Below, in pieces: positions 1 through 44,047 of a DNA stretch of 64,000 bases. A program made the translations under genes and the position numbers. This DNA is from Phlyctochytrium arcticum. Taxonomy: Eukaryota > Chytridiomycota > Chytridiomycetes > Chytridiales > Chytridiaceae. Location of the stretch: the NCBI GenBank assembly GCA_025602905.1, contig JAHLKI010000022.1, positions 1 to 64,000 of the forward strand, in the 5' to 3' direction. Under the pieces are notes generated by a model. It was not told where the DNA came from. It saw only the letters and a program-made list of their open reading frames with translations, and ran no database searches. Position 1 is the first letter of the stretch. Every line of letters begins with the position of its first letter.

Positions 1-3000
1 CAAAGACATTTCGTTCACGCAATGAACTTAACTCGGAAAAGATAGCTTTTCTCCACGATTGCCATTCGGGAGACGCTCTCGCTTCTTCATACGAAGAAGG
101 TATCTTGATCTCTTTGTCTCGCACGCTCTCCAGCGTGTTGTCTTGCGACTGAGAAGCTTTTGCTAGAACAGCCTTTGCTGACTGAATAATCACTTCTTGA
201 GTGAAGCTGCTGGGCTCGTCGATCTGCGGCACGTCGACACCTTCGACAGGTGTTTGCTGACCAGGAGCTACCTGGTCCGATCCGTTGGTTATAGATTGTT
301 CGACGGATTCCATGTTTGTGCCCGCAGAGACATTTTCTTCACTCCCCCTCGAGCCTGCAGCCACTATGCGCCGCTGTCGCGGTTGTTTGTCTTTCGATCC
401 TGCAGGGCGTCCCCTTTTTCGTCCCGCAACGGGAGCAGTATCGCGCGCTGGTACAGCGTTGGAGGTGGGCAAGACCTCCGGCATATTGTGAGATGGGGGG
501 AGGAACGGAGTCGTAGTGACCCTTGATGTGTTGACGAAACCGTCCGGGGTATTCTGCGCAATGCGCTGAAAATCCAAAATCTGTTGGACGGCCGTCTCGC
601 TCTCCTGCGTCGGAGGATCATGAGGAATGAAGCTTGGATTTGGGGAATCAACTGATCTGAACATCCGGATGATTGTTTCAGTGTCAGTTTTCGCACTAGC
701 TGCCCCTAATGCCCCCAAAAAGGGGAATAATTCATCATCGAAGAGGCAATCGGGAAATCGTGCCTTAAGGAGAATGCCTGTTTCAGGTGCCAGATAGCGC
801 ACAATTGATGGGGAATCAAATCCAACATAAATGCCAAGACGTCGTTGTGGTCCCATCTTCTGTCGCTTCGGTGGTTCTATTGGAACCCAAACCGCGCACC
901 CGAAAGTTTTCAAATGAGCGACCGATGGCGGGCGCCCGTCCTTCAACTCCATAAGCGATACTTGTGTATGAATTGCCGGTCGGTAACGCAGGAGTTTGCC
1001 AGCATGCAAAACAGCATGACCCCACGCACTAGCCGGTAAATTTGTCTGGAGAAGCAAAGGACGCGCGATCCAAACGATCCTCTTGACCAGATTTTCAGCA
1101 GCACCATTCTGCTCATGCACATAAGGAACAGAATATTCCGCTTTGATGCCGGCAGCTTCACAGTAGTTGAGGAAGGTAGCACTCATGAACTCGGCAGCAT
1201 TGTCCAAGCGGATGGTGCGGATGGGGTTGTCTGGGAAATAACCTTTGAGCTGAGAAACGGTGGATATAATGCGAGCGCAGGTCAAGTTCTTTGATGCCAA
1301 AAGAAAAACTTCCGTAAATTGACCAGTCGCATCGCCGATAACTTGAAAGTATCGAAAACTGCCGCATGGTGGCTCAAATGGTCCGCACACATCAGAAAAT
1401 AAATGACTGAGAAACGCCGGTGGTGAATACTTTGTCTTCTCAACAAAGGGTTGCCGAATCAACTTTCCTTCCGTACACGGGATACATAGGCAGTGTTTGC
1501 CAGCAGCTGTCGTAATCTTGTGGACGGATAATGGGCAATCCCGTAAGGCGCTAATCAGACGTCGCATCATGCCTAACCCCGGGTGCCCCAACCGCGTATG
1601 CCATAATTGATACTGGTTCAAAAGAGTTGTATTTGCTACGACGGCGTTTATGTGTACAATAGAGGCACCTTGTTCTACGGCTACCGCTACAGGCTTGACG
1701 ATGGTCTTATACAAGAAATTTCCGTTGTTGGTAAATCGTTCAAGACGTTCCATTCTACCTTGCGGGTAGATTTTGACCAGCCAGAAAGAGTCTTCTCCCT
1801 CTTCAGCAGTTGCATCCTTGAAGTCCTTGTAGCCGCTGGCCGCAATCGATCTGACGGAAATGAGGTTACGGGGAGAGTCTGCACAGTAAAGTGCATCCGG
1901 GTCGGAAATGACGGTCCCGTTTGGTAACTTGAAAACAGCATGTCCACGGATGCCAATGCCTTGTCCCGCAATTGTGGTGAGGTTAAAAACCTCCTCCGGG
2001 CGTAGTGTCTTGAAAAATTGTTTGTCGCGCAAGACCGTGTGGGTGCTTCCTGGGTCGTAATATGCTGTACATTTGCTAGTGTCATTGGTCGTTGAGGAAG
2101 AGTTGATGGATGCGTCAATCATATTGAAACATGGATCGTCCGAGAACTCAGCAACTGCAGGTGCTGCATCAACAAAATTTGCGATCATCAAATTTGCCCC
2201 TGGGTTTCCCTGTGGATAATTGTTGCCATTCTGGTTGCCATTCTGGTTGCCGTTCTGATTGCCGTTGCCCTTGCTGGCTTGCAACTCCCTCCAGAGTTTC
2301 TTCACATAGTACGAAGCTTCACACCTCTTGGCAATATGTCCTTGTCTGCCACAAGCAAAACATTCCCCGTTGGCATCTTTCTTGTTGGACGAATGGTTGC
2401 GATTATTGTTTTTGTTAGAGTAGTTGCGATGATTGCGGTTGTTGTTATTTCGTTGCCATTTCCCTTTCTTGCCCGACTTGCGGCCTGTAACGGAGTTCAC
2501 TTGTGGAGTAGCATTGGTGGTTGTCGGAGTGGGTGGCTTGATTCCGCGGTCTTCCTCGGCCTTCAGGCGGTCTGTGTCCCGCTTCATGTCTTTACGGATC
2601 GCATCCATGAGCTTGTCAAACTTCGTGATGTTCCGATAGACATTTGAAGCCATGTTGGTAGGCAGACCCGACAGCGTTTTTTCGATCAAGAGTGCTTCAT
2701 CGCAAGGAATCTTGCAGGTAAGCATTCTTCTCTTGAGGTTGAAAACTCTCTCAGTCCAGGCATCGACGGTATTGAAATCTCCGAAATGTAGCTTGATCCA
2801 CTCTTCTTCTACTCCCTTTCGGAGTTCAAGCGCTATCTCTTGGTATCTCTCTGTTATCGCTGCCCACAGAGCCTTGCTGGTTCTTTCAAACTGGAACCGG
2901 GCTAACGTTGGCGGGGCTAGGTGAAGGCGTAGGAACAGTAGAACTTCTTGGTCCATGCTTGCGGTATTGGCATCAAGGTTCACAACGTAGGACGATAACA

Positions 3001-3175
3001 GTACTCTTGTAAGGTTTCGTGTGGCGAGCACTCGTTCAGTATTGTCTCTCCATTGCGCGTAGTTGTTCCCTTCATAGTCCAGTAGGTCATACATAGGGTT
3101 TGGCAGTTTGAAGATGTCAAAAATGGGTCGAGACATAGCCGGCATAGCTGGAGTTGCAGACGTGCTATCCGCCAT
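1..3175 (-). mobile_element. Ty1/copia gag-pol, partial (cut by window edge)
   Basis: One uninterrupted minus-strand frame runs from an ATG at 3175 to base 1 (about 1058 codons) and leaves the window. Seen in order: a gag region; a CCHC knuckle (CFACGRQGHIAKRC, residue ~270) after an Asn-rich basic stretch; a protease-like DPGS (~372); the pre-integrase HTRLGH motif followed by a CxxC; an integrase core with Asp (FSDVCGP), Asp (RLDNAAEF) and Glu (NGAAEN); a Pro/Ser-rich linker; and the first residues of a copia reverse transcriptase (WQSWRKAIFSEL) at the edge. The order gag-protease-integrase-RT defines Ty1/copia. No stop or frameshift is seen, so this part could be recent and coding-competent. 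RT and RNase H lie outside the window. Confidence 0.95.
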
Positions 3176-3180
3176 AATGG

Positions 3181-3430
3181 GTGGTTAATGGATGGTTAAA
3201 CTCAATGGGAACTGAGGCTCTTAATCTGAGTAAAAAACTCGGATATCATCGTTCCGGGAGCACCTCAAGGCTCCCAATATATACAGGAAACATAGGTCTA
3301 TGTGATACATGATGAAAGACATAAAGCACAGCAATGATGTAGGAATGCTGTGCGAACGGCCAAGGGTCACCATGTGGTGGTATCCGTGGTGCTCAGGAAT
3401 GACACCTGTCAGTGGCAGACGCGACACTAT
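3181..3430 (-). repeat. Putative copia leader and 5' LTR region
   Basis: Read on the minus strand this stretch lies just upstream of gag. TGATATCCGAGT at 3248-3237 matches 9 of 12 bases of the initiator-tRNA primer-binding sequence TGGTATCAGAGC typical of copia elements, so the LTR should end next to it. A TATATATT box lies near 3280 within the presumed LTR. The outer LTR end is not defined because the second LTR and the target duplication are outside the window; a TG near 3427 is one candidate. The boundary is inferred. Confidence 0.45.
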
Positions 3431-5974
3431 CATAATCATTCTTGTCAGTCTGACTTTTGTCCAAAATTATCAAGCGATACCGCACTCGAAAAATTCGAGT
3501 ATATCAATGACATTCATATCAAATATTGTCTTCAGAGTCCATTCGTTTTACACAAACTGAAGACCCGTTTGCGTGCTCTTAAGCATCGCAAAGTTGGAAA
3601 AAATCTTTATCGCACCGAGTATGCTTATTCCGAAAAAGGGAGCCTAGAGCAAATTGGCCGATTGTGGGCTAGAGGACTGTCTCTTCAGAATCTCCAGGCA
3701 AGAGATAATCACTTTAGACAGTATCTAGCAGCAGGACGGTACCATGATATAGACCAAGTAAACTCTATATTTACTTTAATTGCTCATCTCTTTAAACAAC
3801 ATTCTATCACTTGTGATGCTCTAACTCACTATGTCGAAAATCGCTCTACTATCTTAACAGAAAAAAAAATTGACAAACAAGCGGTCGTTTCCATGATGCT
3901 TTTTGCTGGGCGCAAAATTGATGACCCTTTCTTTTCTGAAATACACTCAGTTATTTACACCACACTTTGCCCCATTCTAAAAAACGAGTATCCCGACATT
4001 TGGGAAAAAGTCAGAACATCCCGAGATGCTACTATTAAGGGCAATCGCGAAGGTAGTTTTATCGCACAAGTAACCCAAACCCTCGAAAACAAGGTGACAC
4101 TTTTAATGGATCAATTCTTTACCGATAGGGGGTGGTCGGTTGATGTTCTAATCTTTGATGGTGGAATGATTAGGAAAAGAGAGGGTCACGATATGACCCA
4201 AGAATTACTTGATGAATGCTCACAATTCGTATTTGACAACTGTGGTATTCATATTAAACTGGCGGAAAAACGACTCGTTGTATCTGATGCGTTTTTGGAG
4301 AAATTCCGTTTGAAGTATGACCCTTTGGAGGAAGAGGATGATGATGAAGAGGATGATGAAGAGGAGCCACCCAAGAAAAAGCAAAAAGAAGATGTTGATT
4401 TTGAAGCGTTGCGGGATTTACCATCTGGCAAATGGAAATATTTCGATTTCAAGCGACTTTATGCTCCAACACATCTCAACGCCGCAAAATGGTTTATTGA
4501 AGAACAAAGTGCCGATAGTATCATGAAACATACGAGCGGTTTTCTCTATATCCTCGGGAAAGACAATATCTGGCGCGAGTATGACACTATTGGAGCAAGT
4601 GACTTAAATATTCAAGTTGCCGAAACTCTTGTGTCCTCCTTTAAATCTCTTATCCAGGAAGCAGAGGACGATATGCAAAATGTCAACGACCTTAAAGATG
4701 TGTTTAAAGTGTTCCAACGTACGATCGAAATGAATGATTTCTCTGGAAATGTGGCTAAAAATGTCGATAGACTCTCTGTTAAAAACGACAATTGTATCGA
4801 ACTCTTTCTTTCAAATCCTCATCTGTTCGCATTCACCGATGGCGTTTACGACCTTGTTAAAGGAGCGTTTCGTCCTTTTGAAGCCAAAGATTACATTTTG
4901 CACACTTGCGGCTATCCTCTCCCTAGCGGGGGAGAAGTTACGGAGATTCGAGAGGCAATCTCGTCATTCTTTGCAAGCATCTTTCCATGCGATAAAATAC
5001 GAGACTATCGTATCGCTCAACTTGTACGATGTTTATATGGAAAGGTTGTCGAAGAGTCCTTGTACGTACAAAAAGGAGGGGGGCGAAATGGAAAGGGAGC
5101 TGAAACCACGCTAATTACATCTACTTTTGGGACTTATTTCTACTTTATCAAACCTGAAAATATTACTACTCGCAGCAAAGGTCAACGTGATGCCCCAAAT
5201 GCGCAAATGTTTAACTGTTTTGGTAAGAGATACCTCGCTACTTCTGAACCTCAAGTTGGTCAATCTTTTGCTTCTGATGAAATTAAAATCATTCGAGGAA
5301 ATGACCCTTATCCGGTTCGGACACTTCACGGCAAACCTCTTACGTTCCCTATGACTGGCGCTCTCCATATTCAAACAAACGAAGATCCAAAATTCGACCG
5401 TATCGATACTGCTATTGCTCTTTCGGCGAAAATGATTCCTTACACCGTTACATTTGCAGAATGTAATGATGAAGAAGAGGATGAGGAAGAGGACTTGGCT
5501 CTGCCAAGAGGCTCGCGCAGCGAGCCAGAAGAGGCCGTCCAAATGGATGATGGTGAAGATGATCAAATTGTTCGTCAAGTTGATCCAAACCTTAAAAGAC
5601 TTTTCTCCTCTCCAGAATATCGAGACACATTTATTCTCATACTAATGAGATTCTTTAAATTAAAGTTTGTAAAGAAAGATGGAAGTTTGGATCTCTCGAT
5701 AAAAGTTCCAGAGGAGGTCAATGAGTACACGAAGAAGAATCTGGTGAATTCTTTAACAGTTGCGAAATGGTTCAAAATGACTTACCAATTGACAAACAAC
5801 CCCGAGGACAGAATTGAAGGAACTGCTATATATGATAAGTATCTGGCCGATAATGTTGGATCCACAAATCTTTGTGAGCGAAACACATTTTACAAAGAAC
5901 TGAGAGCGGTAGTATCGGAGAAACGAACAAAGACGACTCGATACTTTGTAGGGATAGAATGGAAGAATGAGTGA
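3350..5974 (+). CDS. TV-Pol-like polymerase fused to D5-type SF3 helicase (virus/plasmid-like replication protein)
   Basis: An 874-codon ORF. N-terminal third: a motif-A-like DIDQVN (residue ~134), a Lys-rich helix (KKIDKQAVV) and a motif-C-like VLIFDGG (~269), the arrangement expected of the transposon-virus polymerase family (TV-Pol, family A-related). An acidic tract followed by PPKKKQK (~326-347) could be a nuclear signal. C-terminal half: a D5_N-like region, Walker A GGGRNGKGAET (~575), GKRYLATSEP as the Walker B region (~625), then IKIIRGNDPYPVR and the sensor Asn in HIQTNEDPKF. Together these define the SF3/D5 helicases of large DNA viruses, virophages and related mobile elements. The first ~35 residues look random and probably come from copia LTR sequence, so the native start is uncertain or displaced. 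The DNA is more AT-rich than the neighbouring genes. The helicase call is firm; the TV-Pol call rests on motif order. Confidence 0.85.
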   Translation: MRTAKGHHVVVSVVLRNDTCQWQTRHYHNHSCQSDFCPKLSSDTALEKFEYINDIHIKYCLQSPFVLHKLKTRLRALKHRKVGKNLYRTEYAYSEKGSLEQIGRLWARGLSLQNLQARDNHFRQYLAAGRYHDIDQVNSIFTLIAHLFKQHSITCDALTHYVENRSTILTEKKIDKQAVVSMMLFAGRKIDDPFFSEIHSVIYTTLCPILKNEYPDIWEKVRTSRDATIKGNREGSFIAQVTQTLENKVTLLMDQFFTDRGWSVDVLIFDGGMIRKREGHDMTQELLDECSQFVFDNCGIHIKLAEKRLVVSDAFLEKFRLKYDPLEEEDDDEEDDEEEPPKKKQKEDVDFEALRDLPSGKWKYFDFKRLYAPTHLNAAKWFIEEQSADSIMKHTSGFLYILGKDNIWREYDTIGASDLNIQVAETLVSSFKSLIQEAEDDMQNVNDLKDVFKVFQRTIEMNDFSGNVAKNVDRLSVKNDNCIELFLSNPHLFAFTDGVYDLVKGAFRPFEAKDYILHTCGYPLPSGGEVTEIREAISSFFASIFPCDKIRDYRIAQLVRCLYGKVVEESLYVQKGGGRNGKGAETTLITSTFGTYFYFIKPENITTRSKGQRDAPNAQMFNCFGKRYLATSEPQVGQSFASDEIKIIRGNDPYPVRTLHGKPLTFPMTGALHIQTNEDPKFDRIDTAIALSAKMIPYTVTFAECNDEEEDEEEDLALPRGSRSEPEEAVQMDDGEDDQIVRQVDPNLKRLFSSPEYRDTFILILMRFFKLKFVKKDGSLDLSIKVPEEVNEYTKKNLVNSLTVAKWFKMTYQLTNNPEDRIEGTAIYDKYLADNVGSTNLCERNTFYKELRAVVSEKRTKTTRYFVGIEWKNE

Positions 5975-5995
5975 ATCGGGGATTGATGAAGAGGG

Positions 5996-6376
5996 GTGAC
6001 AGTTTTTCCAAAAAGGTGACAGTTTGGTGACAGGTAAAAAAAAAAACTGTCACCACTCGATACATGTAGGAAAATACAAATTTATTAATAAAGTTGTGTA
6101 GTGTTTCTATGAAGGGAAAAAAAAGGTGACAGAAATGACAGGTTTTTTGTAAGTTTTTTTTTTGTATAGAATTTTTATGAGTGAGCAGAAGTTCACAGAA
6201 CGTGTGAACTACTTATCACTAGTCTAAAAACTATATCCCCAGGGACTTTACCTCAAAAAAACTGTCATCTCTGTCACCTACATGTAAAATGGAGGGAAAT
6301 ATATAATGAAAAGTGTCTCTCACTCGAGACGTGGAGTAAAAAAAACTGTCACCAAAAGTGTCACCAAAAGTGTCAC
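5996..6376. repeat. GTGACAG/CTGTCAC repeat array (possible origin iterons)
   Basis: Within 381 bases directly after the helicase stop there are seven exact copies of GTGACAG or its complement (5996, 6016, 6027, 6047, 6126, 6271, 6346), plus near copies at 6136 (TGACAG), 6262 (CTGTCAT), 6359 and 6371 (TGTCAC). Both orientations occur, often extended as GGTGACAGTTT or AAACTGTCACC. An inverted pair TACATGTAGG (6061) / CCTACATGTA (6278) flanks the middle, and A-runs surround many copies. Repeats of this density beside a replication helicase resemble iterons of plasmid and viral origins. The function is inferred. Confidence 0.6.
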
Positions 6377-6471
6377 CGTTTTTTGGGATGATATCGATAT
6401 GTAGAAGTTGCAGAATCGGGACATTCAAATATGACACACAGAGGGGCATAGCAGTATCGGGGGGTAATATC

Positions 6472-6503
6472 GATAATCCTGATGATCCTGATGATCCTGA
6501 TAG
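6472..6503. repeat. Three 9-bp direct repeats (GATGATCCT type)
   Basis: GATAATCCT, GATGATCCT and GATGATCCT follow each other at 6472-6498, ending in GATAG. TAATATCGATAA-like sequence lies on both sides (6466 and about 6519). They sit between the GTGACAG array and the small ORF. No function is evident. Confidence 0.5.
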
Positions 6504-6622
6504 TATTGCGAGATTTCGTAATATCGATAACAGAGAATGTTATAAAGGTTTTGAAAGTCCCGTAAAGAGGCCGCTCCATAGCGGAGAGGTCATTCGACAA
6601 TATCAATCATCGCAGGAGAAGA

Positions 6623-6973
6623 ATGGAAGCGACATTTATTGAGAAGAAGGCGGAAGAATTGATAGACTTGGAACATTCCGAGGAATACCGGAAAGCATCA
6701 ACACTGATAAAGCGACATGCGACAATCTTGGAAAAGGTCAAGACACACATGAAGGCAAAGGGAATAACGGAAATAAAGATTAGGAAAGTTCGAATATTGA
6801 AACATCTGCGATTCGATATAAGAAAGACGAGGCGAGTAGATGGAAAATCTCTACCATTGGAATTACAAGAACAGTATACAGTGGAGACGGATGTGTGGTG
6901 GAAAACGATAAATGTATTAGATATGAAGGAGATAGTGGATAATATAAAACAGGAAGAAGATGTATCACTGTAA
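6623..6973 (+). CDS. Small basic hypothetical protein, 116 aa
   Basis: ATG at 6623 opens a 116-codon frame, rich in Lys, Glu and Ile, with predicted helices and no recognised family. It is on the same strand as the polymerase-helicase ORF about 650 bases upstream, separated from it by the repeat array, and shares its AT-rich, short-codon look, so it may belong to the same element. No Cys or His clusters, membrane segment or signal peptide are seen. A small DNA-binding or accessory protein is possible, but nothing in the sequence proves a role. It could also be a chance ORF. Confidence 0.4.
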   Translation: MEATFIEKKAEELIDLEHSEEYRKASTLIKRHATILEKVKTHMKAKGITEIKIRKVRILKHLRFDIRKTRRVDGKSLPLELQEQYTVETDVWWKTINVLDMKEIVDNIKQEEDVSL

Positions 6974-7128
6974 AAATATTTGTACATGTAGCGGGGAGAT
7001 GTGAATAAAATCAAAGTGAAAATACTTCGGCGACCCGATGATGGATGATGGATGATGGATGTAGCGAGAATATTCTTCGCCGACTTGTAAGGTGTGAAAT
7101 TTTGACAGAAGAAATTTGTGAATTTTCT

Positions 7129-7396
7129 GGAAGTCCCGTATGTGAGCGTATTACACGGTGTAATGAGCGTATTACACCGGTGTAATGTGGAAGTCCCGTC
7201 CCGTGACAAGCGGCACCACTCGATGAAATATGGAGAGGGATGATTCATGATGTGTAAGATGGCTCGATGTTTGATGGAGGCGACCTTATCATAAGGTCAC
7301 ATAGTGGAGAAGCGGCCTTATAATAAGGTCACATAGCGGGCTTCACAGTTGCCGCATAGTTGGCCCATAGTTGGCGCATAGTTGGGTATAGTTGGG
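7129..7396. repeat. Palindrome- and direct-repeat-rich region
   Basis: GGAAGTCCCGT occurs at 7129 and 7189. Between them two GAGCGTATTACAC.GGTGTAAT units include a perfect 16-base palindrome (ATTACACCGGTGTAAT, 7171-7186) and a 15-base near copy (7150-7164). GACCTTATcATAAGGTC is a perfect hairpin (7282-7298) with a diverged copy at 7315-7330; both are followed by ACATAG. Four tandem (G/C)CATAGTTGG-like units span 7354-7396. Before them, at 7035-7060, lie GATGGAT repeats. The density of dyads is unlike the flanking DNA and suggests an element terminus or protein-binding region; this is inference. Confidence 0.55.
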
Positions 7397-7404
7397 ACCG
7401 GCCC

Positions 7405-7517
7405 TGTGATAGTGCACGCTAGTTCTTTGACCGAATTTTAGTATATGCACGTTAGTTCTTTGACCGAATTTTAGTATATACTAAAATTCGGTCAAAGAAC
7501 TAGCGTGCACTATCACA
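7405..7517. repeat. Inverted repeat with doubled left arm (possible TIR pair)
   Basis: The left arm (7405-7445) starts TGTGATAGTGCACGCTAG. A shortened second copy follows directly (7446-7477), then the inverted arm (7478-7517), giving a palindrome centred at 7477/7478. The second copy and the inverted arm pair with one mismatch over about 31 bases; the full outer arm pairs over about 40. The inverted arm also encodes the last residues and the TAG stop (7483-7481) of the minus-strand ORF to the right. This looks like two facing terminal inverted repeats or a tail-to-tail junction. No further copy was found in the window. Confidence 0.6.
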
Positions 7518-9058
7518 AACGAGAAGGATAGAAGGGTAGAAAAAAGATCTTTCAGATGAGAAACCATTCTGGGAACAACATCGTCCATCGCCTTCTCCAA
7601 GGGAAGCGGTGCACTGGACTTCTCATCATCATCTTCTTCATCATTGTCATGATCATCCGTCGGGATCGGAAGTCCGCGAAGCTGGAATTCGCGTTCAGTC
7701 ATCTCTGCCAGCTGCTTGAGGGCAGATTCCCCCCTCATGGCTGTGATAAGGAACGCTTTCCGGGTCACTTGATCGTTGGTATCATAAAAGCGGATAGCAG
7801 CGCGAAGGATGGAATGAAAGACCTCTAGGTCTTCGCTGGAAAACGTGGAGAATAGGACAGAGACGAGGACATCCTGTGGGAGGTGGGCCGGCAATTTCTC
7901 CAAGAGGGCGAGCTGGAATAGGATAATGTTCACGTAATTCTTCTTCTCCAGACGGGTGAACAATGGGAAGAGGCGCTGCAGACACATCTTGATCTGACCA
8001 AGATCACCGCTGGCTAACAAGTATGGGCAGTCCACGGAAAGAGGAATAGCCTCCTCAAAAACCCACAAGATGGCATCGATCATAGCCTTGCGGACGGGTG
8101 TAGCGTCAGGATGATTGGCCGCCAACTTGTAGGTTTTTAGAAGTTCCTCTCGACATTCTTGCCATGCGGTCATGGCAAGGGCCAGCATAGCTGTTCTGCG
8201 TTTAGGTCGCATCTTGATTGGCGTGGTGTTCTCAATCTCGGGGTACCCAGCAATCCAGAGGGGATGAATCAGCGTCCAAGCATGTATGAGGATGGCCTCT
8301 TGAGAGTTGAGTGATACATGCATCAAGTCGGGTACTGCCAGTACATGTGGTTGTAAAGCCTGGTACTTTGGGGATCTGAGAAGCTTGTTGACGTACATCC
8401 ATACGTAAAAATCCCCGGCCAGCACAAAGGACTGTTTGTGTGCAAGATCCTCGCCAGGATAGCCTACTTTGGACAGAAAAGCCTCTATGTTGTCCATGAC
8501 GGGCTTAAGGTCATCAGCTGACTTCATGGGATTATTATCGTTCCCGATAATATGGAAGTCTTCCTGAGATGCCGCCTTCGTTGCCATGCTATAAGCATAC
8601 ATTTTCTTGGAGAGAACTTCGCCATTGCGCAACTTGGCATAGCTTTCGCTTCCGGGGCCTTCGATGACCTGGGGGATCCACGACACGTCCTGCAGGAGAG
8701 AGGCATTCAAACTTCCAATACCAGGGGGAAGTGGTTTGAGGTCTCGATGAAGCTTCACTGCATAGTTGGCAGTTGTTCTTGCGCTCGTAAACTTGCCTGG
8801 CGCATTAGCTGTGCTTGGTATGGCGCGAATCTGACACCAGTGAAAATCGTCAATCGTGACTACAAGAAGGGGGTTTGTTTGGAGAATGTCCTTCACCACG
8901 GCTTCTTGCCACTCCAGGATTAGATCGTTTGAACGGGCAACCGACTTTGACGGATTGTAGCAGATCCCTACTCTCGAAAAGTATCGCTGCAGGGTATATG
9001 ACTGACCGATCATCTGCCGTCCAACGATTCGTTTGATATAGTCGCACCTCCTATCCAT
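7481..9058 (-). CDS. DUF6589-like transposon-associated protein, 3' ORF
   Basis: A 525-codon minus-strand ORF. Landmarks: VVTIDDFHW near residue 65; a GDFYVW...VPDLMHVSLN segment in the middle; RLEKKNYVNIILFQLALLEKL and EDLEVFHSIL toward the end; an acidic linker; and a hydrophobic C-terminus encoded by the inverted repeat. The order acidic-His motif, (P)xxxHxxxN, K/RxNYxxxL and DxxxxH resembles DUF6589-type proteins common in fungal mobile DNA; this is a pattern judgement. It overlaps the upstream ORF by 49 bases in another frame. The two could be one gene with a frameshift, joined by an unusual intron (GTGCGAC... near 9045 to an AG near 8970), or separate overlapping genes. Confidence 0.5.
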   Translation of the reverse strand: MDRRCDYIKRIVGRQMIGQSYTLQRYFSRVGICYNPSKSVARSNDLILEWQEAVVKDILQTNPLLVVTIDDFHWCQIRAIPSTANAPGKFTSARTTANYAVKLHRDLKPLPPGIGSLNASLLQDVSWIPQVIEGPGSESYAKLRNGEVLSKKMYAYSMATKAASQEDFHIIGNDNNPMKSADDLKPVMDNIEAFLSKVGYPGEDLAHKQSFVLAGDFYVWMYVNKLLRSPKYQALQPHVLAVPDLMHVSLNSQEAILIHAWTLIHPLWIAGYPEIENTTPIKMRPKRRTAMLALAMTAWQECREELLKTYKLAANHPDATPVRKAMIDAILWVFEEAIPLSVDCPYLLASGDLGQIKMCLQRLFPLFTRLEKKNYVNIILFQLALLEKLPAHLPQDVLVSVLFSTFSSEDLEVFHSILRAAIRFYDTNDQVTRKAFLITAMRGESALKQLAEMTEREFQLRGLPIPTDDHDNDEEDDDEKSSAPLPLEKAMDDVVPRMVSHLKDLFSTLLSFSFVIVHASSLTEF

Positions 9059-9786
9059 GGTATGGGCTTCATAGCAGATGGAAAAATAATTTTTCTCTTC
9101 ATGCGGTCCCTGTAGACCACGGATTGAAGTGGTGTGTCCTTGAAGCCAATCGAGGTGGCCTTGAGCTCGTACAGACGTGGGTATGCCGCAATGAATCCAT
9201 CGACATCGACAAAGGGATTCCCGTCGAAAGGACGTTTGATAAAGTCCAACATGGCTTTATTCAAGTCATTGACCGTTGCGGGATCCTCTTCATCCGGTTT
9301 CGAAGGAGTGATAATGGTGATGGCATCCAAGTTCTCCGGCTCATCATGATCAACCATTATGACTACGGCTTCATCCTCATCTGCATTTGCTTCCGGCGAT
9401 TCATCTGGTACACTTTCCACAGGTCGGAAGAATCCGTATTTATACCATCGAGATCGACACCCTTCGCAAGCATACGGGGCAGCGGCCCTACGCGCAAGCT
9501 GAGGCTTCACACCATTCATCGCCAGCTTACCGAGCTCGTCATATCCAAACTTGTAAAATCGTGAGGAGTTCTTGGTCCCACAACCAAAACAGCCGGGTAT
9601 AAAGTACCACTTACCGTTCTTTCTTCCAGGCACTTCATAGAACCAAACGCGTGAGCCTACAGCCTGAGGATTTCCGAGGTTCAAGAAAAAAGGCAAATGA
9701 CGAAGGAATTACGATCAGTAGACTGTAGCGGCGCTTGATGTTCAAGTTGATCAAGATGCCCATCTCACCTTCCTCTTCGGCGGCAT
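9010..9786 (-). CDS. Zinc-binding N-terminal part of the DUF6589-like gene
   Basis: Best read as two exons. A short first exon (9786-9769) encodes MPPKRK, the donor is GTGAGA and the acceptor CCTCAG, and exon 2 starts at 9663 and runs to a stop at 9010. The product (~224 aa) has two CxxC pairs (PGCFGCG and ACEGCRSR, about 45 residues apart) that could form one zinc site, then an acidic region and a helical tail. The basic start suggests nuclear targeting. Without the intron the ORF would have to start at a TTG, which argues for splicing. It leads straight into the 3' ORF in a shifted frame, so together they probably were one protein of about 750 residues. Confidence 0.5.
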
Positions 9787-30208: not shown

Positions 30209-32689
30209 CTAAGACCCCGAATTCAGTATCCGCCCCTCGGTCGGCAAACTCCGCTCTCCCAGCGGTATAACTAGCCACAAAAACTCTCCGGCCTCCGAGG
30301 GGGTGGTAGAGATGTGGGTGGAGCGGTGCGGGAATGTGATGGGTGGAAATGGTGAAGAGGGAAACGCGTTGGTGGGGTTGGATTGGGGCAGGAAGTTCAA
30401 AAGTCCGGTTGGGAGGGACATGGGGAAATTAAAGGTGGGGGTTGATGCGTGGGGGAGGAACTGGAATGGGTCGGCGAAAGGGGTGGTGGTTCCGTTTATA
30501 TGTTGCTGCTGCTGCTGCTGCTGTTGTTGGGGGTACTGATGCTGCGGATGCAGGTACTGCTGGTGTGGGTGATGTTGCTGTGGTATGGAGGAATGTTGTG
30601 ATTGCGGGTGCAGATGTGTTTGTGTCTGGGGTTGTACTTGCGGGGAAGGGTGTGATGGGGGTGGAGGTGGAGGTAACTGGGAATGGGATTGTGGTTGGGA
30701 TGGCCGCTGTTGTTGTTGAGATTTTTCTTGGATGTCGGGTGATTGGAATTCTCGGGGAGAGTTTTGGGATAGCATGATGGGAGAACGGGTGGGAAGGGAG
30801 ACGGCAGTGGATTGAGGGGAAAAGTTGAATAGGCCAGATGCTAGCGGTGAGGGGAAATTGATGCTGGCGTTGGATTGGGGGGACATGTGGAATATGTCGG
30901 GTGAGGGTGCCGCGTATGCGTTCGTTTGCTGTTGCTGTTGCTGCTGATGATGTTGATGTTGCAGTTGTTGATGCGGTTGATGCTGCTGTTGTTGCACTTG
31001 TTGCTGCTGCTGCTGCTGCTGCTGGTGTTGTTGGGGGGGAGGAGTAGCTGATGGAAGTCGCTGGTCGCTTTGAAACTGATACTGCTGCAACAGATTTTGC
31101 GACTCCTGTTGCTGCTGTTCCTGCTGCGGCGGCGGACCAGTTGGAATAGCCGATTGCTGCAACATGGCCATCACCTCCTCAAACGATGACTGCGCAAATG
31201 TGTTGACAGGTGGTACCTCTGGAGACAGCGAGAGGGTCGTCGCGCGGTCGTCGGACTCTACCTTTGTATCGGAATCAGTGACCAGATCAATGACCTGGGC
31301 TGGGCTCGACTGCATTGGGGTTGACTTAGATGTCAGCTCCGTCTCCATCGAAGCCATAACGGGCCCGGACATAGTGGGTATCAATGGCGTGGCTGGTGTA
31401 GTGATCCCATCAGGCTTGGGTCCAATGGCAATGACCGGTTTCGGAGGTGCAGGCCGAATCGTGACGGGACAGGTGACGCAACGCTTGGGAACTTCCTTCC
31501 TTTTGGGTGCGTCCAAACATAAATGGGCCATTCCTCGTTTGACACATCGTCCACAAGGACGAGCTTCATCGCACGACATGTGTGCTTTGCGACAAAGAAT
31601 ACACGCCTGGCACACTTTGCGTCGCTTGCAGTCTTTCCGGGACGACCCTGTGCTTGGTCCCGCAGACATTGTGCTAGATGTAGGGGTAGCAGATTCACTG
31701 TCACCCAATCCGCCACTGGTATCAATTGTCATGGACTGTACAGACGACTCTCTTGCGTGCGTGTGTTTGACCGTCGCGACTGGAACCGCCGGTTTTTGTG
31801 AAGAAGCCATGGCCGCCAACGCGCTCAATAACAAGTTCCCACCCGGTTGCTGCGCATGTTGTAGTAAGAACTGCTGCTGCTCGGGGGTCAGTATCGACAA
31901 GGGCGGAACATTCAGTGACGGGAGCTGTTGATGTTGTTGTTGTTGTTGCTGCTGCTGCTGGTTGTGAAGGGGTTGAAAGAAGGAGCCCAGTAAGTCGGCG
32001 GTTCCCGACGCGGGTGGTAAGAATGAAGTTGGCGGAACGGGCGATTGAACAATTGGCTCTCCATCCAGTCCGACCGGGCACCCCTCAACCGTCTTGCGCG
32101 CAACATCCAACTGTTTACGCAATGCGGCAGTTTTCTTCTTAACCTTTCCAAGCCCGGTAAGTTTCCTGGTATCACCATCACCATCCCCATCATCAGCTCC
32201 TTTAGCAAGGTGAGATCCTTGGCCAACCTCCGACGCAGCTCCTCCATAGTCCTCGGCCGGTCGTTTCCGTGCCTGATTCTGCTGCTGAAGTTGAACTGTC
32301 GACTCCTGACCAGTCGAATGAGCCGAGCTCTGTCCACCTAGCATCAATCCCGCACTCTCAAGCGCATTATTTTCGACAAAATCCCGAAACATGGTATCCA
32401 AATCCTCAATCTGCACGACGCCCGGAAAAGTCGGTAAAAACAAATCCTCCATCCCAAGCTCGCCGGTGCCCATCATGACCCCGCCCCACCCCGATGCCCC
32501 CGACCCAGGATGTCCAATTGAGCTACTTGAGGCATAATCCAATGGGACATGTGCGGGATGTTGCTGCTGTTGTTGTTGCTGTTGCTGCGGCTGGGATTGG
32601 GAGGGGGGTTGAAGGAAATTTCGGGCGACGTTGGCAGGTAGACCTTGCGGGTTCCCACATCCCAGCCATCCCTCGCCCACTGGTTTCAT
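30209..32689 (-). CDS. AcuK/Ert1-like Zn2Cys6 transcription factor, copy 1 (poly-Q)
   Basis: ATG at 32689 (the longer frame starts at a TTG), single exon, 826 aa. The zinc cluster ACILCRKAHMSCDEARPC..CVKRGMAHLC (~355-386) has the CxxCxnHMSCDxxRPCxRCxKR signature of the AcuK/Ert1/Rds2 group that controls gluconeogenic and non-fermentable carbon genes in other fungi. It is preceded by a helical Gln segment (LSILTPEQQQFLLQHAQ) and followed by a long Gln/Pro/His-rich tail with several poly-Q runs. The PAS domain expected downstream of the cluster in AcuK/Ert1 proteins is not recognisable. It is a tandem paralogue of the gene at 34530-36305, with matching N-terminus (GEGWLGCGNPQGLPANVARN). Confidence 0.88.
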   Translation of the reverse strand: MKPVGEGWLGCGNPQGLPANVARNFLQPPSQSQPQQQQQQQQQHPAHVPLDYASSSSIGHPGSGASGWGGVMMGTGELGMEDLFLPTFPGVVQIEDLDTMFRDFVENNALESAGLMLGGQSSAHSTGQESTVQLQQQNQARKRPAEDYGGAASEVGQGSHLAKGADDGDGDGDTRKLTGLGKVKKKTAALRKQLDVARKTVEGCPVGLDGEPIVQSPVPPTSFLPPASGTADLLGSFFQPLHNQQQQQQQQQHQQLPSLNVPPLSILTPEQQQFLLQHAQQPGGNLLLSALAAMASSQKPAVPVATVKHTHARESSVQSMTIDTSGGLGDSESATPTSSTMSAGPSTGSSRKDCKRRKVCQACILCRKAHMSCDEARPCGRCVKRGMAHLCLDAPKRKEVPKRCVTCPVTIRPAPPKPVIAIGPKPDGITTPATPLIPTMSGPVMASMETELTSKSTPMQSSPAQVIDLVTDSDTKVESDDRATTLSLSPEVPPVNTFAQSSFEEVMAMLQQSAIPTGPPPQQEQQQQESQNLLQQYQFQSDQRLPSATPPPQQHQQQQQQQQQVQQQQHQPHQQLQHQHHQQQQQQQTNAYAAPSPDIFHMSPQSNASINFPSPLASGLFNFSPQSTAVSLPTRSPIMLSQNSPREFQSPDIQEKSQQQQRPSQPQSHSQLPPPPPPSHPSPQVQPQTQTHLHPQSQHSSIPQQHHPHQQYLHPQHQYPQQQQQQQQQHINGTTTPFADPFQFLPHASTPTFNFPMSLPTGLLNFLPQSNPTNAFPSSPFPPITFPHRSTHISTTPSEAGEFLWLVIPLGERSLPTEGRILNSGS

Positions 32690-34529
32690 CTTTTTTGCGT
32701 GTGAACTTGTTGGACCGGCCAACCAAGACTTTCTTGAGCCAAAAGAAGTTCAGGAACACTCGGAATCACTATTTCTGCTGTCTTGTCACAGAGTAGGAAG
32801 GCACCAATTCCATGTGTCTCGTCCTGAAAGGTCTCGTATAAATGCCGGAAAGTTGCCAAAGTTGTCGATATTCAAGCTTGGGTAGGTGTGTGTTCCGGCG
32901 GTAAAGTGTAATGCAGTGCCCAGACGGCCGACAACAGCCGAGTTTATAAACTCTTGGGTAGATCTAAATAGTACTTGTAACCTCCGTTTCGACCTCTATC
33001 CTAGCGCAAGTCGTCTAATGCACAACAAAAACAAATGTAAAATCCTTCGGCTCGCCATTCCGGAAACCGCCAAGAGGCAACTTCCATTCCGGTGGCTGTG
33101 CTGACACTGTATGATAAATCATTCACTGACATTCAGATTGTGTTTCCCCAAGTGTTTCCCCCAAATAAAAGAAGTAAAACGACCCAGCAGAAGGCCATAT
33201 TATCCTGATCCACAGTATTTCAGAGGGCTATGATCGGGTACGTAACAGCAGTCTATTGATCTTATGTGCGCGTTCTGTAATATATAGAAAAAACGGTATC
33301 AACCTCAAATCATCCAAAAAATATCCGCATTGTCTTGACGATGTGTTTGAAATTTGTCTTTACAATGTGATTTTGGTGCCTAATCGAAAACGGAAGGCAA
33401 GTGAAGGAAAATGATACGGAGTTAATTTGGTGCGTGGGAATCCATCTTGCTGTGTTTATTTCCCTGGGGAGTTTCCAACTTGGCTGTAAGAATAGTGTAA
33501 TAAGAGGGTGCCCGAAATTATCGCAAGAGTGATGATGGAAAATTTTGCCATTACGTGCAAAATATATACCACGTAAAGTTATTCGCACGACCTGTCACTA
33601 GAATTCACGAGTCAGATGCCAGGTAAAGTACCCCCCTGGTAGGTCTTTGTAACAATGGAAGTCAATGAAGAGGAAATATACGACGTAAGAACATAGCAAT
33701 CTATTGAGTCGCGGATAGCATCTTGATTAGATACAAAAAATCAATAAATGAAATGAGCAAGCAGCCTATAGATGCAGGCCGTCCGCGGCGGGATAATGCG
33801 GGTTTTGAGCCCACGGCGATTTCAGGTGGAAAGGCCCGTCACGGCAAGTTTCAATGACAAGCAGCCGTGGTTGACATCGCTAGGCAAAGCCGTGCTGTTC
33901 CACATGAAATAGCCGTGGTTGCATGTGGGAAACGGTGAAGACCTAGAACTTCCTTGAATCTTGTGGCGTGCCAGTGCTGATGTTGCCAACAAAATTGTTC
34001 CCAGAGGAGCTGCTGGCATCCCGTTTCTCGAAAGACCGACAGCCAATCCGCTCGTCCTTCTGGTGCAGCATTAGATCCGAGCGCACTGGGATGCGGGACT
34101 TGCTGGGGCGTTTTCCATCAGATTGGTATATCGATACTCTGTCGTCCGCTGAATGTATGCGGCAACCGATCAACGTTTTGTAATTACGTCTTGAATTGCT
34201 GCTTCAGTAGCGAGAATGGGTGGCAGGTCAATTACGCCGTAGGCGTAGCAATTGTGACAGGTGGGGGAGTTCGCGCGGCGGCGGGTCAACGGTCTTGGAT
34301 GAGGCGCTTGTGTGAGGAAAACCACAGGCTAGATAAGAGTGTATCGCATACCGTCAGTCACAACTATACCCAAACTTTTTGTCGTAGAGCATTCCCCATC
34401 ACAATCTAGGCAGGAACTGAATACGAAGTCAAAACGAGATTGTTCAATGTAATACGCACCAGGACAATCTGAACATTATTTGCAAGGGTGCATATGTATT
34501 CCACTGAGCTCCTGCAGCGCATGCGACAC
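32690..34529. other. Long intergenic region between the AcuK-like paralogues
   Basis: 1.8 kb with no gene that could be supported. Short ORFs (for example 33968-34183 plus and 33822-34046 minus) overlap each other in conflicting frames and match no family. The start of this region presumably holds the promoter of copy 1. No tRNA, transposon end or clear repeat was recognised. Confidence 0.5.
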
Positions 34530-36305
34530 CTACATCGACAGCGCCAGCGCTGGATCAAACATCTGTTGCAAAAATCTCCCATGGCCGACATCGCGAACGG
34601 GAGCATGATGTTTAGTCATTTGTCGGAAGTACGAGAGCCCCGTGTTGAGATGATGAACTTGTGCATCCAAATTCTGAATGCGATGCATAAGTGGCCTGAG
34701 TCGGGCCTCCAGAACTGCCTCAAATTGGGACATCATGTGAGAGTCATATGAGCGAGTAGGCGGGGGATGATTCTCCGGAAGACGAGTTTGGAAAATACAA
34801 GACGATTGATCAGATAGGACTTGCTGCGAGAATAAGCTATCGGTAAAGCTAGCATGGTGAGGGAGAGGCAAGTCGACATCATCTCCCTCTTGTCCGTCTT
34901 GAGTGTACAGAGAGCGATGACCGAGTGAGTTTTGTGCATTGAGGTGAGGAGACGCCTGATCCGACGTCGTGAGGTTGTCATCATCGTCGTCAGCAGCCGC
35001 CGCGATTGCCGGATGTTGAGACAGTGGGACATCATCGTCGTCAACCTTGGCACCGAAAAGTGCCGACATCGCGGGAATCAAAGAGGTGGCCGCTGTAGTG
35101 ACCTCATCAGGTTTGGGTATAATGGGTATAATGGCAACGGCCGGTTTGGGGGGTGCAGGGCGGATGGTGACGGGGCAGGTGACGCCACGTTTGGGATCTT
35201 CCTTCCTCTTGGGCGCGTCCAAACATAAATGGGCCATGCCTCGTTTGGCACATCGCGAACAGGGACGGGCTGCGTCGCACGACATGTGTGCTTTTCGACA
35301 TAGAATACACGCCTGATCCACTTTGCGTCTTTTGCGGTCTTTCTGGGACGATGCCGTGCTAGCAGATTCGCCATCACCCACTACTCCACTGATACCATTT
35401 GCTAAAGGCTGTACAGTCGACTCTCTTGCATGCATGTATTTGACCGTCGCAACCGGGACCGCCGGTTTTTGCGCAGTAGACATGGCCGCCAGCGCATTCA
35501 ACCATAAGTTCCCACCCGGTTGCTGCGCATGTTGTAACAAGAACTGCTGCTGCTCGGGGGTCAGGATCGACAGGGGCGGAACAGTCAGATCCGGCAGTTG
35601 CTGTTGGTTGTGCAGAGATTGAAAGAATGAGCCAAGTAAATCTGCGGTCCCCGACGCTGGTGGTAAGAACGAAGATGGTGATTGAACAATCGGCTCTCCA
35701 TCCAGTCCAACCGGGCACCCTTCAACCGTCTTGCGCGCAACGTCCAACTGCTTTCGCAATGCGGCAGTTCTCCGCTTGACCTTTCCTGCCCCCGTCAGTT
35801 TCCTCGTATCGGTATCATCTTGAGTTCCTTTAGCAGTATGATCATCTTGTCCACTCTCTGCCAAATTCTCATCAAACGCCAAAACAACTTCAGATGTAGC
35901 TTCATACTCCTTAGCTTGTCGCTTCCGTCCCTGCTGCGGCTGCTGAATCAGCGACTCCTGACTACTCGACTGACCCAGATTCTGTTCGTCCAGCGTCAAT
36001 CCCCTCCGGATGCCATCATCATTCCCACTACTCTCGACAAACTCCCGGAACAGGGTATCCAAATCCTCAATCTGCGGTAGAAACAAATCCTCTATTCCCA
36101 GCTCGCCCTCTGCCCACAATGCTCCGGATGCGGGATGTCCAATAGAGTTACTTGACGCATAATCCAATGGGACATGAACGGGCTGTTGTTGTTGTTGCTG
36201 CTGCTGCTGAGATTGGGAGAGAGGTTCCAGGAAATTGCGGGCAACGTTGGCGGGTAGACCTTGCGGATTTCCGCATCCCAGCCATCCCTCGCCCACAGGT
36301 CTCAT
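34530..36305 (-). CDS. AcuK/Ert1-like Zn2Cys6 transcription factor, copy 2
   Basis: 591 aa, single exon. The same N-terminal block as copy 1 (VGEGWLGCGNPQGLPANVA), a shorter poly-Q, and the zinc cluster ACILCRKAHMSCDAARPCSRCAKRGMAHLC (~327-358). The shared middle block is followed by a tail quite unlike copy 1: no long poly-Q but acidic DDDDD/DDDD runs and a C-terminal heptad-like segment (MSQFEAVLEARLRPLMHRIQNL) that could dimerise. The two copies therefore share promoter-proximal and DNA-binding parts but differ in the C-terminal effector, as expected after tandem duplication and divergence. Probably nuclear; targets unknown. Confidence 0.88.
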   Translation of the reverse strand: MRPVGEGWLGCGNPQGLPANVARNFLEPLSQSQQQQQQQQQPVHVPLDYASSNSIGHPASGALWAEGELGIEDLFLPQIEDLDTLFREFVESSGNDDGIRRGLTLDEQNLGQSSSQESLIQQPQQGRKRQAKEYEATSEVVLAFDENLAESGQDDHTAKGTQDDTDTRKLTGAGKVKRRTAALRKQLDVARKTVEGCPVGLDGEPIVQSPSSFLPPASGTADLLGSFFQSLHNQQQLPDLTVPPLSILTPEQQQFLLQHAQQPGGNLWLNALAAMSTAQKPAVPVATVKYMHARESTVQPLANGISGVVGDGESASTASSQKDRKRRKVDQACILCRKAHMSCDAARPCSRCAKRGMAHLCLDAPKRKEDPKRGVTCPVTIRPAPPKPAVAIIPIIPKPDEVTTAATSLIPAMSALFGAKVDDDDVPLSQHPAIAAAADDDDDNLTTSDQASPHLNAQNSLGHRSLYTQDGQEGDDVDLPLPHHASFTDSLFSQQVLSDQSSCIFQTRLPENHPPPTRSYDSHMMSQFEAVLEARLRPLMHRIQNLDAQVHHLNTGLSYFRQMTKHHAPVRDVGHGRFLQQMFDPALALSM

Positions 36306-36670
36306 TTTTCTGCGAACGAAGACCTTCTTGGAACCAAAAGTACTTCAAGAAAACCGAAATCTTCGAGGAAATCTTCGATCCGGTGGCTGTGCTGACACTA
36401 AGAATCATGTGGCGCAGTCGTGTACTGCGCGGTGGGAACCCTGGTGGGAACCCAGGTGGGAACCGAGAACCGTGGTCCGTGGGTTGTGCACAGGATGTGC
36501 AGGGATGTGCGTCCGGAAGGACCAGAATATGAAAACGACCATGCATTATTTTCTATCAACAAATTTAACCCTTTTTACACATAAAAGTTTAAATTAAGCA
36601 AATGAACGGTAAGAAAAACAATACGCAAACTTGATGGGAATATATGTGTGTAAAGAACGGCCATATCAAT
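36306..36670. other. Intergenic, no gene recognised
   Basis: 365 bases between copy 2 of the AcuK-like pair and the RING gene stop. Contains the tandem GTGGGAACC units at 36431-36462 (about four copies). No coding evidence. Confidence 0.5.
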
Positions 36671-41287: not shown

Positions 41288-42663
41288 ATGGCCAACTCAA
41301 GACTACCAACTGAAATACTGGCGAAAATTGTGGACGAGATTGATGACACCAAAACTTTGCTTGCTCTAAGCTTCATATCTCATGCTTGGCATCAAGTTGT
41401 CCAATCAGTCCTGTATCGCTCGATTAAACTTTGGAACGTTAATCGTGTTCGTCCCCAACTTCAGCTGCTATTGAGAACGCTCGAAAACAAACCACAACTG
41501 GCAAATTTTGTTCGAGAGCTAAAGGTTAGAGGATTCAGCCAAAGTGCGACAACCGCTTCACGTATTTCTCGTGAGGTTTATGCGGAAATATCCTCGTTCG
41601 CAAGTCAGTGTCCCAACCTGTAAGTTGCGTCGGCTGTTTATTCAATAAATTGAGTTGAACCAATCCTTTTTAATAGTGCAAGGCTTACTTTGAGATCATG
41701 TATGCAGATGGGAGACCAGGACTTGCTTGGCATCGTGGAAAAGTGTACATCCTTGGAAGAACTGTCTATAGCCGGTTGCTGTATGATCTCAAGCAAGGGT
41801 CTTAGCATGATCTTACCCTTTTTGAAAAATGTGCGAAAGCTCGATCTTGCCGAGGTCCTCAACCTTGGTGATGATGGCCTTTGTGACATCCCCAAAATGT
41901 GCCCACTACTGGAAGATCTAGACTTGTGGAGAACAAGGGCCACGCCACCCGGAGTATCCTCTATCATGAAGCTCTCCCCAAAATTAGTGTCCCTCAATCT
42001 GTCGAAACAATGTGGAATTAATCGTTTGGAGATGAGAGCTCTCAAGAATGAGAAGCCATCGCATCTGACAATTACCGTCCATGACCTTCATGACGATCAC
42101 TGGGATTCTTACAGCTTTGATTTAGAAAGCTACTACAACGAGTCGTGGGAGTTCCAAGACTTTGGTAGGTGGGATGACCATGAATGGCACACTTCGGATT
42201 ATGACTATTCGGATGATGAGAGAGACGAGGAGTTGGAATGATTCCAATGACCTCCTATGAAGGCAGTCATTTGTCGGCTCTTTCGCAAGTGAGGAACGGG
42301 CATCGTTGGGAGTTCAATACTTCCAGCAAGAGATAGTTGATGCAAATAGTACAGATTCATAAATGAGTATAGGTGCACATGATACAACAGCACCAGTTTG
42401 GAAAATTTTAATTTTTTTTGCATAACACATCGAATCTTCTTTACCCTACATCACATACATCGCCAAGCAGATGAGGTGAATTTTTACGTAGTCTGCTATT
42501 TTTTGGTCGCTATCATAAATCAAAATTGCAACTCTTTGCCCGGTTGAACATTTTAGCAGCGATTTCTTCCCCAGCTGCCGTATAGGTTGGATTCTAGCAC
42601 CCCTCGTTGGTCGAGCGGAAACAACACTACTATGTCAAATACGCTTGTCTACACAGCGGCAGA
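40740..42663 (+). repeat. Segmental duplication, unit A (F-box copy 1 with flanks)
   Basis: Starts near ATATACGCACGGCGCCTGG and ends near ACACAGCGGCAG. Promoter, both exons, intron and about 400 bases of downstream DNA align by eye with 43635-45493 in the same orientation, with scattered substitutions and small indels. Confidence 0.8.
41288..42241 (+). CDS. F-box/LRR protein, copy 1
   Basis: Two exons: 41288-41619 and 41677-42241 (298 aa). N-terminal F-box: SRLPTEILAKIVDEID...LLALSFISHAWHQVVQSVLYRSI. Exon 2 holds cysteine-type leucine-rich repeats: DLLGIVEKCTSLEELSIAGC, LPFLKNVRKLDLAEV, IPKMCPLLEDLDLWRT and KLVSLNLSKQCGI, then a repeat-capping KPSHLTITV and an acidic Tyr-rich tail (YDYSDDERDEELE). 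F-box proteins link substrates to SCF (Skp1-Cullin1) ubiquitin ligases; here the LRR would bind the substrate. The intron position is the same in all family members. The substrate is unknown. Confidence 0.88.
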
Positions 42664-42696
42664 CCCTCGGTCCAAGTCGGTAAATCGTAATCACTG

Positions 42697-43496
42697 TCAG
42701 CATCCCCATCTGTCATCATCGTCGAACCCCCGCCAGGCGACCCAGTGAGTAATTGTGAGATGCGGTGGCTTCTTTTTCATGATAGCTCTCATCTCCAAAA
42801 AATTAATTGCCAAATTCAGAGACATCAAGTTGGTAGCAAGCTCCATGATCAAGGATACTCCGGTTCGCGTGACCCCTGTCCATGTCAAGTCTAAATCTTC
42901 CAGTAGCGGGCACATTTTGGCGATATTTTCAAGACAAGCATCATCAATTTGGAAGTTCTCAGAAACATCGAGCTTTCGCAGATTTTTCAGAAAGGGCAAG
43001 ACCATGACGAAGCGCTTTTTGGTGATTTCGTCGGACTTGGCTATAGACAGTTCTTCTAAAGATGTGCACTTGGTCTCGGATCATGATACATGCGGTGAAA
43101 TCAAGCCTCGTACTAAGGATTGGGTCAACTCAAGTTATCAAGTGCAGTGCACAGCTATAGGCAAACTTACAGGTTTAGACACAGACTTGCTAGGCTGGCT
43201 AGGTCCGCAAAAAGTTGATTATGACCTTCCGGACCCGGATAACACGATGGGACGTTCAGCTCTCGAACGAAACTTGCCAGATCCAGTTTTTCTTCAAGTG
43301 TTTTTAGTAGCAGCCGAATTCGAGAGGGAAAGTGCCGATCGCCCCGACTGCCAATCGAGCGGTACAGACGTAGTTGGGCAACTTGACGCCAAGCATGCGA
43401 TACGGAGCTCAGAACAAGCAAAGTTTTGGTGTCGTTATCGATCGCCCCCGCGATTTTCGCCAGTATCTCATTCGGGAGTCGTGAGCCGGCCGTCAT
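42697..43496 (-). pseudogene. F-box/LRR copy 2, frameshifted
   Basis: Exon 1 (43496-43171) encodes a normal F-box (SRLPNEILAKIAGAID...HAWRQVAQLRLYRSI) and the usual donor and acceptor follow (exon 2 from 43112). Just after the GACCA of exon 2 (minus strand, about 43070) some 23 bases present in copies 1 and 3 are missing, removing the codons for DLLGIxxK and shifting the frame; the spliced frame then stops after about 35 codons. The original LRR frame remains open downstream (LPFLKNLRKLDVSE, MCPLLEDLDL) to 42697. It is therefore a recent pseudogene or encodes a truncated F-box-only protein. Confidence 0.75.
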
Positions 43497-44040
43497 ATCG
43501 TCGATATTAGGTACGGAATACTCGGAGGGTCTCAAAAGTTGGACGGTTTCAAAACTTGGAGCGACCTAATTGACAGCTGTCAACTTGACATGGTCTGTGC
43601 CACACATATCCCGTTGAAGGCTAAATGACTGATTTAGAGATCGTATATACGCAAGGCGCCTGGATATAGAAGTTCCAGCAGCTTCTTTTTTTTACATATA
43701 CTCGAGTAGTATACACTCCAAAGCAGTCAAGAAAAGTTTCAAATGAACGCATCTTTATCATGCCCATCATCCTCTTTTATGTTATGTACATCCGTGTTTT
43801 GTAACTATCTGCCCTACTGACATCAAATATCTTAATCAATCAAAAGCTTTCTGGCGGGATGAACCCAGAGCAAGGCATTGATGCCCAAGTCCCCACTTGC
43901 AAAAGCACGGGCAATATGACTCTTTGCTTCGTTGTAATCATTACACCTTGAGCCCCCACGCGGTTACCTGATCTGCCCTATCAGGGCAATTTTCCCACCT
44001 CAGTTACTAGATGTGTCAGATTTGACACCGACCTCATGTG

Positions 44041-44047
44041 TATAAAG
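44041..44047 (+). promoter_or_regulatory. Putative TATA box of F-box copy 3
   Basis: TATAAAG about 106 bases before the ATG. The corresponding position in copy 1 (41153-41163) reads GTATACAAAG, so the box is altered there. Confidence 0.35.

Follow-up and report, generated by a model that had tools for sequence, protein, structure and literature searches.

The analysed window comprises the first 64 kb of contig C22, starting at base 1, of the 31.5-Mb, 91-contig assembly of the chytrid Phlyctochytrium arcticum, in agreement with the fungal host that a first-pass annotation had assumed from the letters alone. The following features were assigned at and around its left end:

1..3226, minus strand: copia-like internal region, cut by the contig start (by eye, from sequence)
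3227..3447, minus strand: LTR of the copia-like element, inserted into the replicase start codon
3449..5974, plus strand: TV-Pol–SF3 helicase coding sequence, native codons 2–842 plus stop, by comparison with other copies
3452..4285, plus strand: TV-Pol domain, family A DNA polymerase fold
3740–3763, plus strand: TV-Pol motif A, YHDIDQVN
4157–4159, plus strand: Asp of TV-Pol motif C
4514..4918, plus strand: D5_N domain (Pfam PF08706, 32.6 bits, cut-off 22.4)
4769..5971, plus strand: SF3 (D5-type) helicase
5075–5098, plus strand: Walker A motif GGGRNGKG of the SF3 helicase
6623..6973, plus strand: small ORF of 116 aa, no family
7405..7517: right terminus of the element, with perfectly complementary 42-bp arms, an extra 33-bp half-arm between them and outer ends TGT...ACA
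7518..9708, minus strand: DUF6589-like gene (E 0.045, below cut-off), its 3' end interrupted by the element terminus

The open frame, described at the outset as an AT-rich run of 874 codons unlike its neighbours, was confirmed as such within the window (3350–5974, plus strand), as the longest stop-free run in 3448–5974 reached 841 codons compared with at most 178 in 1000 shuffles, and the GC content was 0.40 for 3448–7517 versus 0.49 for 7518–64000. Alignment with the other copies starts at position 3448, at which point most of them read ATGTCTGACTTTTGTCC. The window copy is thus damaged by a copia-like insertion, the native ATG having been lost to the LTR while codons 2–842 were kept; a complete 842-aa replicase frame is found at locus L021. 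The genome holds 24 other matches to the LTR, several of them paired at a distance of about 5 kb, and the copia-like gag (label by eye) begins at about 3175 and is read leftward. Elsewhere in the window, inspection by eye revealed several F-box/LRR-like paralogues on both strands (41654–50058) and a tandem pair of paralogous genes for glutamine-rich Zn2Cys6-like regulators (30209–36344).

The frame encodes a replicase in which a family A-type (TV-Pol) DNA polymerase, presumably active, is fused to a D5-like SF3 helicase. This fusion had originally been read from motif resemblance and was borne out by fold comparison, by the D5_N profile and by ten TV-Pol residues conserved in 35 of 35 alignment rows. 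Both catalytic aspartates of the RRM-like palm are present in the window domain, and R89, found in all 35 rows, was assigned to the template-contacting beta-hairpin from its position ahead of motif A only. For the RxxxK motif of the fingers, K142 is likewise invariant (35/35), and the residue four positions earlier, in a gapped region, is Lys in the window protein but varies among the other rows. On the helicase side, D5_N, an SF3 core with Walker A and the sensor Asn were all identified. The profile searches that the first-pass annotation had proposed thus supported its D5_N assignment above the cut-off, whereas no profile named the N-terminal part a polymerase. In a tree of 33 rows, none of them a named virophage or NCLDV polymerase, the seven chytrid polymerase domains formed one clade with a support of 100/99. 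The TV-Pol part gave no match in the INPHARED phages, and with the replicase alignment as query against IMG/VR, the best 80 of 237 confirmed loci matched in the helicase part only.

A tblastn search of the own genome with the window protein returned 55 segments. Sixteen close loci of 81–100% identity, some of them fragments, were counted on C22, C16, C1, C5, C43, C67, C4 (two), C17, C3, C2, C6, C24, C25, C45 and C32, a count that omits C-terminal pieces of 34–49 residues and matches to residues 1–55, which correspond to the LTR. A second set at 31–41% identity matched chiefly in the polymerase part. Nine of the twelve ATG-bearing loci examined were uninterrupted (824–846 aa) and three were broken (L028, L030, L033). 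Diverged replicase pairs gave dN/dS values of 0.15–0.22, and the window copy differed from L021 by a dS of 0.006 with a ratio of 0.45 that rests on few changes, so that both halves of the earlier suggestion that the gene is either young or under selection hold. The L024 and L025 replicases showed no difference in the dN/dS comparison, and the two loci differ by one mismatch in 4190 bp through to the palindrome's end, beyond which the flanks are unlike, indicating recent movement. Comparison of twelve right flanks of 300 bp (a thirteenth, L032, was left out because its sequence runs in reverse through a nested element) revealed likeness for L030 and L033 only, which are 98.7% alike over 9 kb including the flank and therefore look like a segmental duplication. 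Taken with the copy numbers, these unlike flanks corroborate the mobile origin that the first-pass annotation had inferred. The possibility that C43 and C67 represent one locus assembled twice was rejected, as their right flanks differ. Several copies lie near contig ends, a placement that may reflect assembly breakage; subtelomeric targeting was discarded, as no telomere repeat was found in the six contig-end sequences examined and a repeat-broken assembly is equally likely.

In sister elements about 25 kb long, genes for an rve-chromodomain integrase, a double-jelly-roll capsid protein and an A32-like packaging ATPase are flanked by a palindromic terminus on each side. The integrase yielded 70 segments in the genome (for the L039 protein, Chromo scored above cut-off and rve, at E 6e-7, just under the Pfam cut-off), the capsid 57 and the ATPase 40, the latter matching Pox_A32 at E 6e-4 (L039, below the Pfam cut-off) and the PHROG terminase large subunit at 4e-7. 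Using part of the other gene lists, 50 of the 57 capsid segments were found to lie no more than 12 kb from the start of another hallmark. A structural model of the Spizellomyces punctatus capsid homologue (pLDDT 79.4) matched PBCV-1 Vp54, Sputnik MCP and PRD1 P3, and on this model the sister elements encode a double-jelly-roll major capsid protein. From its right end, the 25.1-kb element on C4 (900741–925880) carries TVpol, a 340-aa ORF, integrase, capsid and ATPase, an order that excludes about 13 kb at the far end; its capsid gene contains one in-frame stop.

The 340-aa ORF is conserved in 14 segments, and ORFs of 132–145 aa, alike by eye to the 116-aa ORF of the window, recur at the corresponding position in several sister elements. 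Candidate penton ORFs in L041 (near the MCP gene) and L039 gave no Pfam hits and PHROG matches at chance level only. L041:775–1401, between the integrase and capsid genes, holds an ORF with HNH_3 above and AP2 just below the cut-off. No relatives were confirmed in IMG/VR with the capsid as query. A chitinase inside the C4 elements was considered and rejected (0 of 6 GH18 segments). At G000:C10:387218–417298, a terminus of a 44-bp type, an integrase, a capsid and an AEP-like segment were noted, with a GH18 chitinase domain 29 kb from the terminus whose membership of the element is unproven. Upstream of degenerate integrases, L021:1–150, L023:9062–9448 and L032:2377–2922 share a start, MTTIWFQLTTANGK..., which by eye we take to be a Crinkler-like N-terminus; its recurrence in three copies suggests a host-type gene that either belongs to the amplified unit or was formerly its target.

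Comparison of replicases between elements revealed that L038 and L039 are 89% identical over their first 324 residues and give no significant alignment beyond. The helicase type also changes, with PF19263 in L036–L038, D5_N in the window protein and D5_N below cut-off in L039. At the extremity of contig C24, a TV-Pol gene has an element with the same right end inside it. Following a similar promoter stretch, this element encodes an 870-aa ORF that combines a different N-terminal half with a PF19263 helicase. Relatives of this N-terminus occur at eight close and four distant places, itself counted; it looks AEP-like by eye only, as no Pfam, PHROG or PDB match covers this half. The 24.8-kb element on C4, beside the 25.1-kb one, resembles its neighbour in capsid, integrase and ATPase while lacking a TV-Pol match, and near its end a Prim-Pol domain (PF09250, E 1e-10, L026:2–397) marks a further replicase type. 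From these alignments, whole replicases, or the helicase half alone, appear to have been swapped among otherwise closely related proviruses, and such swapping within one genome would represent module exchange caught close to the event.

The sister copies carry the same kind of right terminus as the window. A full terminal palindrome was recovered in 15 of 20 regions (14 by scan, L036 by motif), L021 has half a palindrome only, and for L028, L038, L039 and L040 none was found in the stretch fetched. The pattern ATAGTGCA-N20-50-TGCACTAT occurs at 54 sites in the genome compared with none for the reversed control pattern, and 12 of the 14 sites whose letters were inspected are perfect palindromes. 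Three elements span 24.3–25.1 kb between paired termini and others 4.6 to 43.8 kb. Where both ends of element-sized pairs were inspected, four of five pairs were identical (C3 and three on C4, the exception being C2), which is weaker evidence than it looks because some palindrome types recur in several elements. Among ten distinct termini (12 rows), 99.3% of cells pair, compared with 21–51% in slid versions of the alignment; since the rows had been picked as palindromes, the informative part is that in 15 of 36 pairs both partners had changed. Hairpin folds of six termini gave z values of −12 to −21. A 44-bp terminus type (letters from C4; by length on C9) flanks elements whose capsids are 26–27% identical to the query, so that palindromic ends seem to be old in the group. 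A search of IMG/VR with the terminal pattern gave at least 120 loci, and as none of the 121 matches listed was perfectly palindromic and mean pairing was 0.52, these were read as chance. By eye, the DUF6589-like frame of the window diverges at the palindrome from a similar C-terminus in L036, and two elements lie at different positions in two similar DUF6589-like genes (window 7518–9708 and L036:6972–7784). A 74-bp near-perfect palindrome of other sequence (TGACACAGTGCACG...) at L024:2478–2551 may mark the end of elements of yet another family.

Gene set, folds, copy number, purifying selection, palindromic ends and recent movement are all direct observations on this family, and the capsid-bearing sister copies sharpen the original reading of a virus- or plasmid-type replicon into that of an endogenous polinton-like virus (PLV). 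We regard the PLV or PLV-derived identity as highly probable, and assign a probability of about 0.85 to the full explanation that window 3448–7517 represents the right-hand end of a polinton-like (MELD-type) DNA virus, or of a close derivative, integrated in the genome. In the mechanism that we propose, the helicase would open the linear genome, the TV-Pol domain would prime and copy it, the palindromic ends would fold back such that the extreme termini are completed without a protein primer, and the integrase would insert the element at new chromosomal sites through its TGT...ACA ends. Both the repeated half-arm of the window terminus and the halved palindrome of L021 have the appearance of errors in fold-back copying. 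The hairpin-replication step itself is a tentative proposal that we consider rather improbable as it stands.

Alternatively, the palindromes may be symmetric TIRs that serve solely as integrase recognition ends, with replication proceeding by a circle or another priming route, a view to which we give somewhat less than even odds. The right ends examined have outer ends TGT...ACA, TG/CA being usual for rve-type ends, and a chromodomain integrase is present in the elements. However, an integrase should require the outer bases only, whereas the inner arms vary between elements yet still pair, and the extra half-arm of the window terminus and the halved L021 palindrome are what fold-back copying errors might yield.

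A similar weight, not far below an even chance, falls to the possibility that the window holds no independent virus but a capsid-less derivative, consisting of replicase and ends, that spreads via the proteins of complete relatives. In the window copy, capsid and integrase genes are absent from view, its left side lying beyond the contig start. Among its nearest relatives, several possess a degenerate integrase and, in the flank read, lack a capsid gene, and the copy may therefore belong to a derivative line mobilised in this way: a chromodomain piece precedes a short integrase core in C16, C24 and, by homology, C5; no capsid match was found within 12 kb of C1:1529570 or on C24 and C16; and the C5 copy sits in a 9.1-kb interval between palindromes. 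On the other hand, the two C5 end palindromes are unequal in length, the C16, C43, C67 and C17 contigs stop 0.5–2.7 kb upstream of the gene, leaving their left sides out of view, and capsid-gene elements at both C4 loci, C3, C2 and C6 hold close relatives of the same replicase.

Perfect palindromes of 50–60 bp are also resolvase-like substrates, and a telomere resolvase related to tyrosine recombinases, for which the conserved 340-aa ORF would be the candidate, could cut them to leave covalently closed hairpin ends. The C-terminus of this ORF resembles, by eye, a tyrosine recombinase box, but the label was dropped as neither Pfam nor PHROG profiles gave any recombinase support. The HHS box is missing in two near-identical copies among four aligned ORFs, and the integrated ends retain both arms; we consider this explanation very improbable. 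Finally, that the frame is a cellular replication gene, the case that the first-pass annotation had named as refuting its reading, or that viral sequence contaminates the assembly is so unlikely as to be negligible despite the copies near contig ends, since some of the 16 close loci lie deep within Mb-scale contigs, the twelve right flanks are mutually unlike save one pair, the window terminus cuts the DUF6589-like gene and replicase relatives exist in Spizellomyces and Powellomyces, the cellular gene having been rejected on own-genome copies, these relatives and fold comparison.

Returning to the endogenous PLV, the many capsid-bearing elements, the several open replicase and capsid frames and the two recently moved replicases make the existence of a living chytrid dsDNA virus a testable question, and the palindromic ends point to a way in which small viruses lacking a protein-primed polymerase might complete the copying of a linear genome. 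As a speculative possibility to which we give rather low odds, we put forward a capsid-encoding eukaryotic DNA virus lineage with perfect palindromic telomeres, hairpin-assisted protein-free end copying by a family A-type polymerase and swapped replicases or helicase halves.

With respect to known systems, palindromic repeats near both ends have been described for the virophage DSLV3 (PMC10301787), where, compared by description only, they occupy asymmetric positions; apart from this remark, a literature search excluding most subscription journals found no title on palindromic PLV termini, and a search for P. arcticum with 'virus' found no related title. The TV-Pol family as described in PMC2579912 shares the conserved Arg, the Asp active site, the D5 helicase fusion and the family A fold, and differs in that the helicase type changes between P. 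arcticum copies and the RxxxK Arg is not clearly present here. Both TVpol-S3H and AEP-S3H fusions have been reported from PLVs (PMC12220804; PMC12721341). Cryptophyte PLVs resemble the present elements in their TVpol-S3H replicase, rve integrases and lineage-specific expansions, whereas their TIRs measure several hundred bp and the word 'palindrome' is absent from the main text (PMC12220804). According to the abstract of PMC10640383, no dsDNA virus infecting fungi was known as of 2023. Bellas and Sommaruga reported an integrated PLV in S. punctatus and capsid genes in Allomyces, proposed dsDNA viruses of fungi and noted a chitinase in the S. punctatus PLV group (PMC7805220). A deposited capsid, 'hexon [Powellomyces chytrid fungus MELD virus 5]', for which our literature search found no paper, is 64% identical to the P. 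arcticum capsid, compared by protein entry alone; together with the S. punctatus PLV (PMC7805220), it indicates that chytrid PLVs are already known. The S. punctatus PLV likewise comes from a chytrid host, with an MCP (SPPG_02195) 67% identical and a replicase (SPPG_05087) 44% identical over 95%, this replicase and the capsid protein SPPG_05090 lying on equally long contigs. In contrast to the one element reported there, the P. arcticum genome holds many, and while TIRs were reported in seven fungal and oomycete elements (PMC7805220), those of P. arcticum are distinguished by palindromic ends and swapped replicases.
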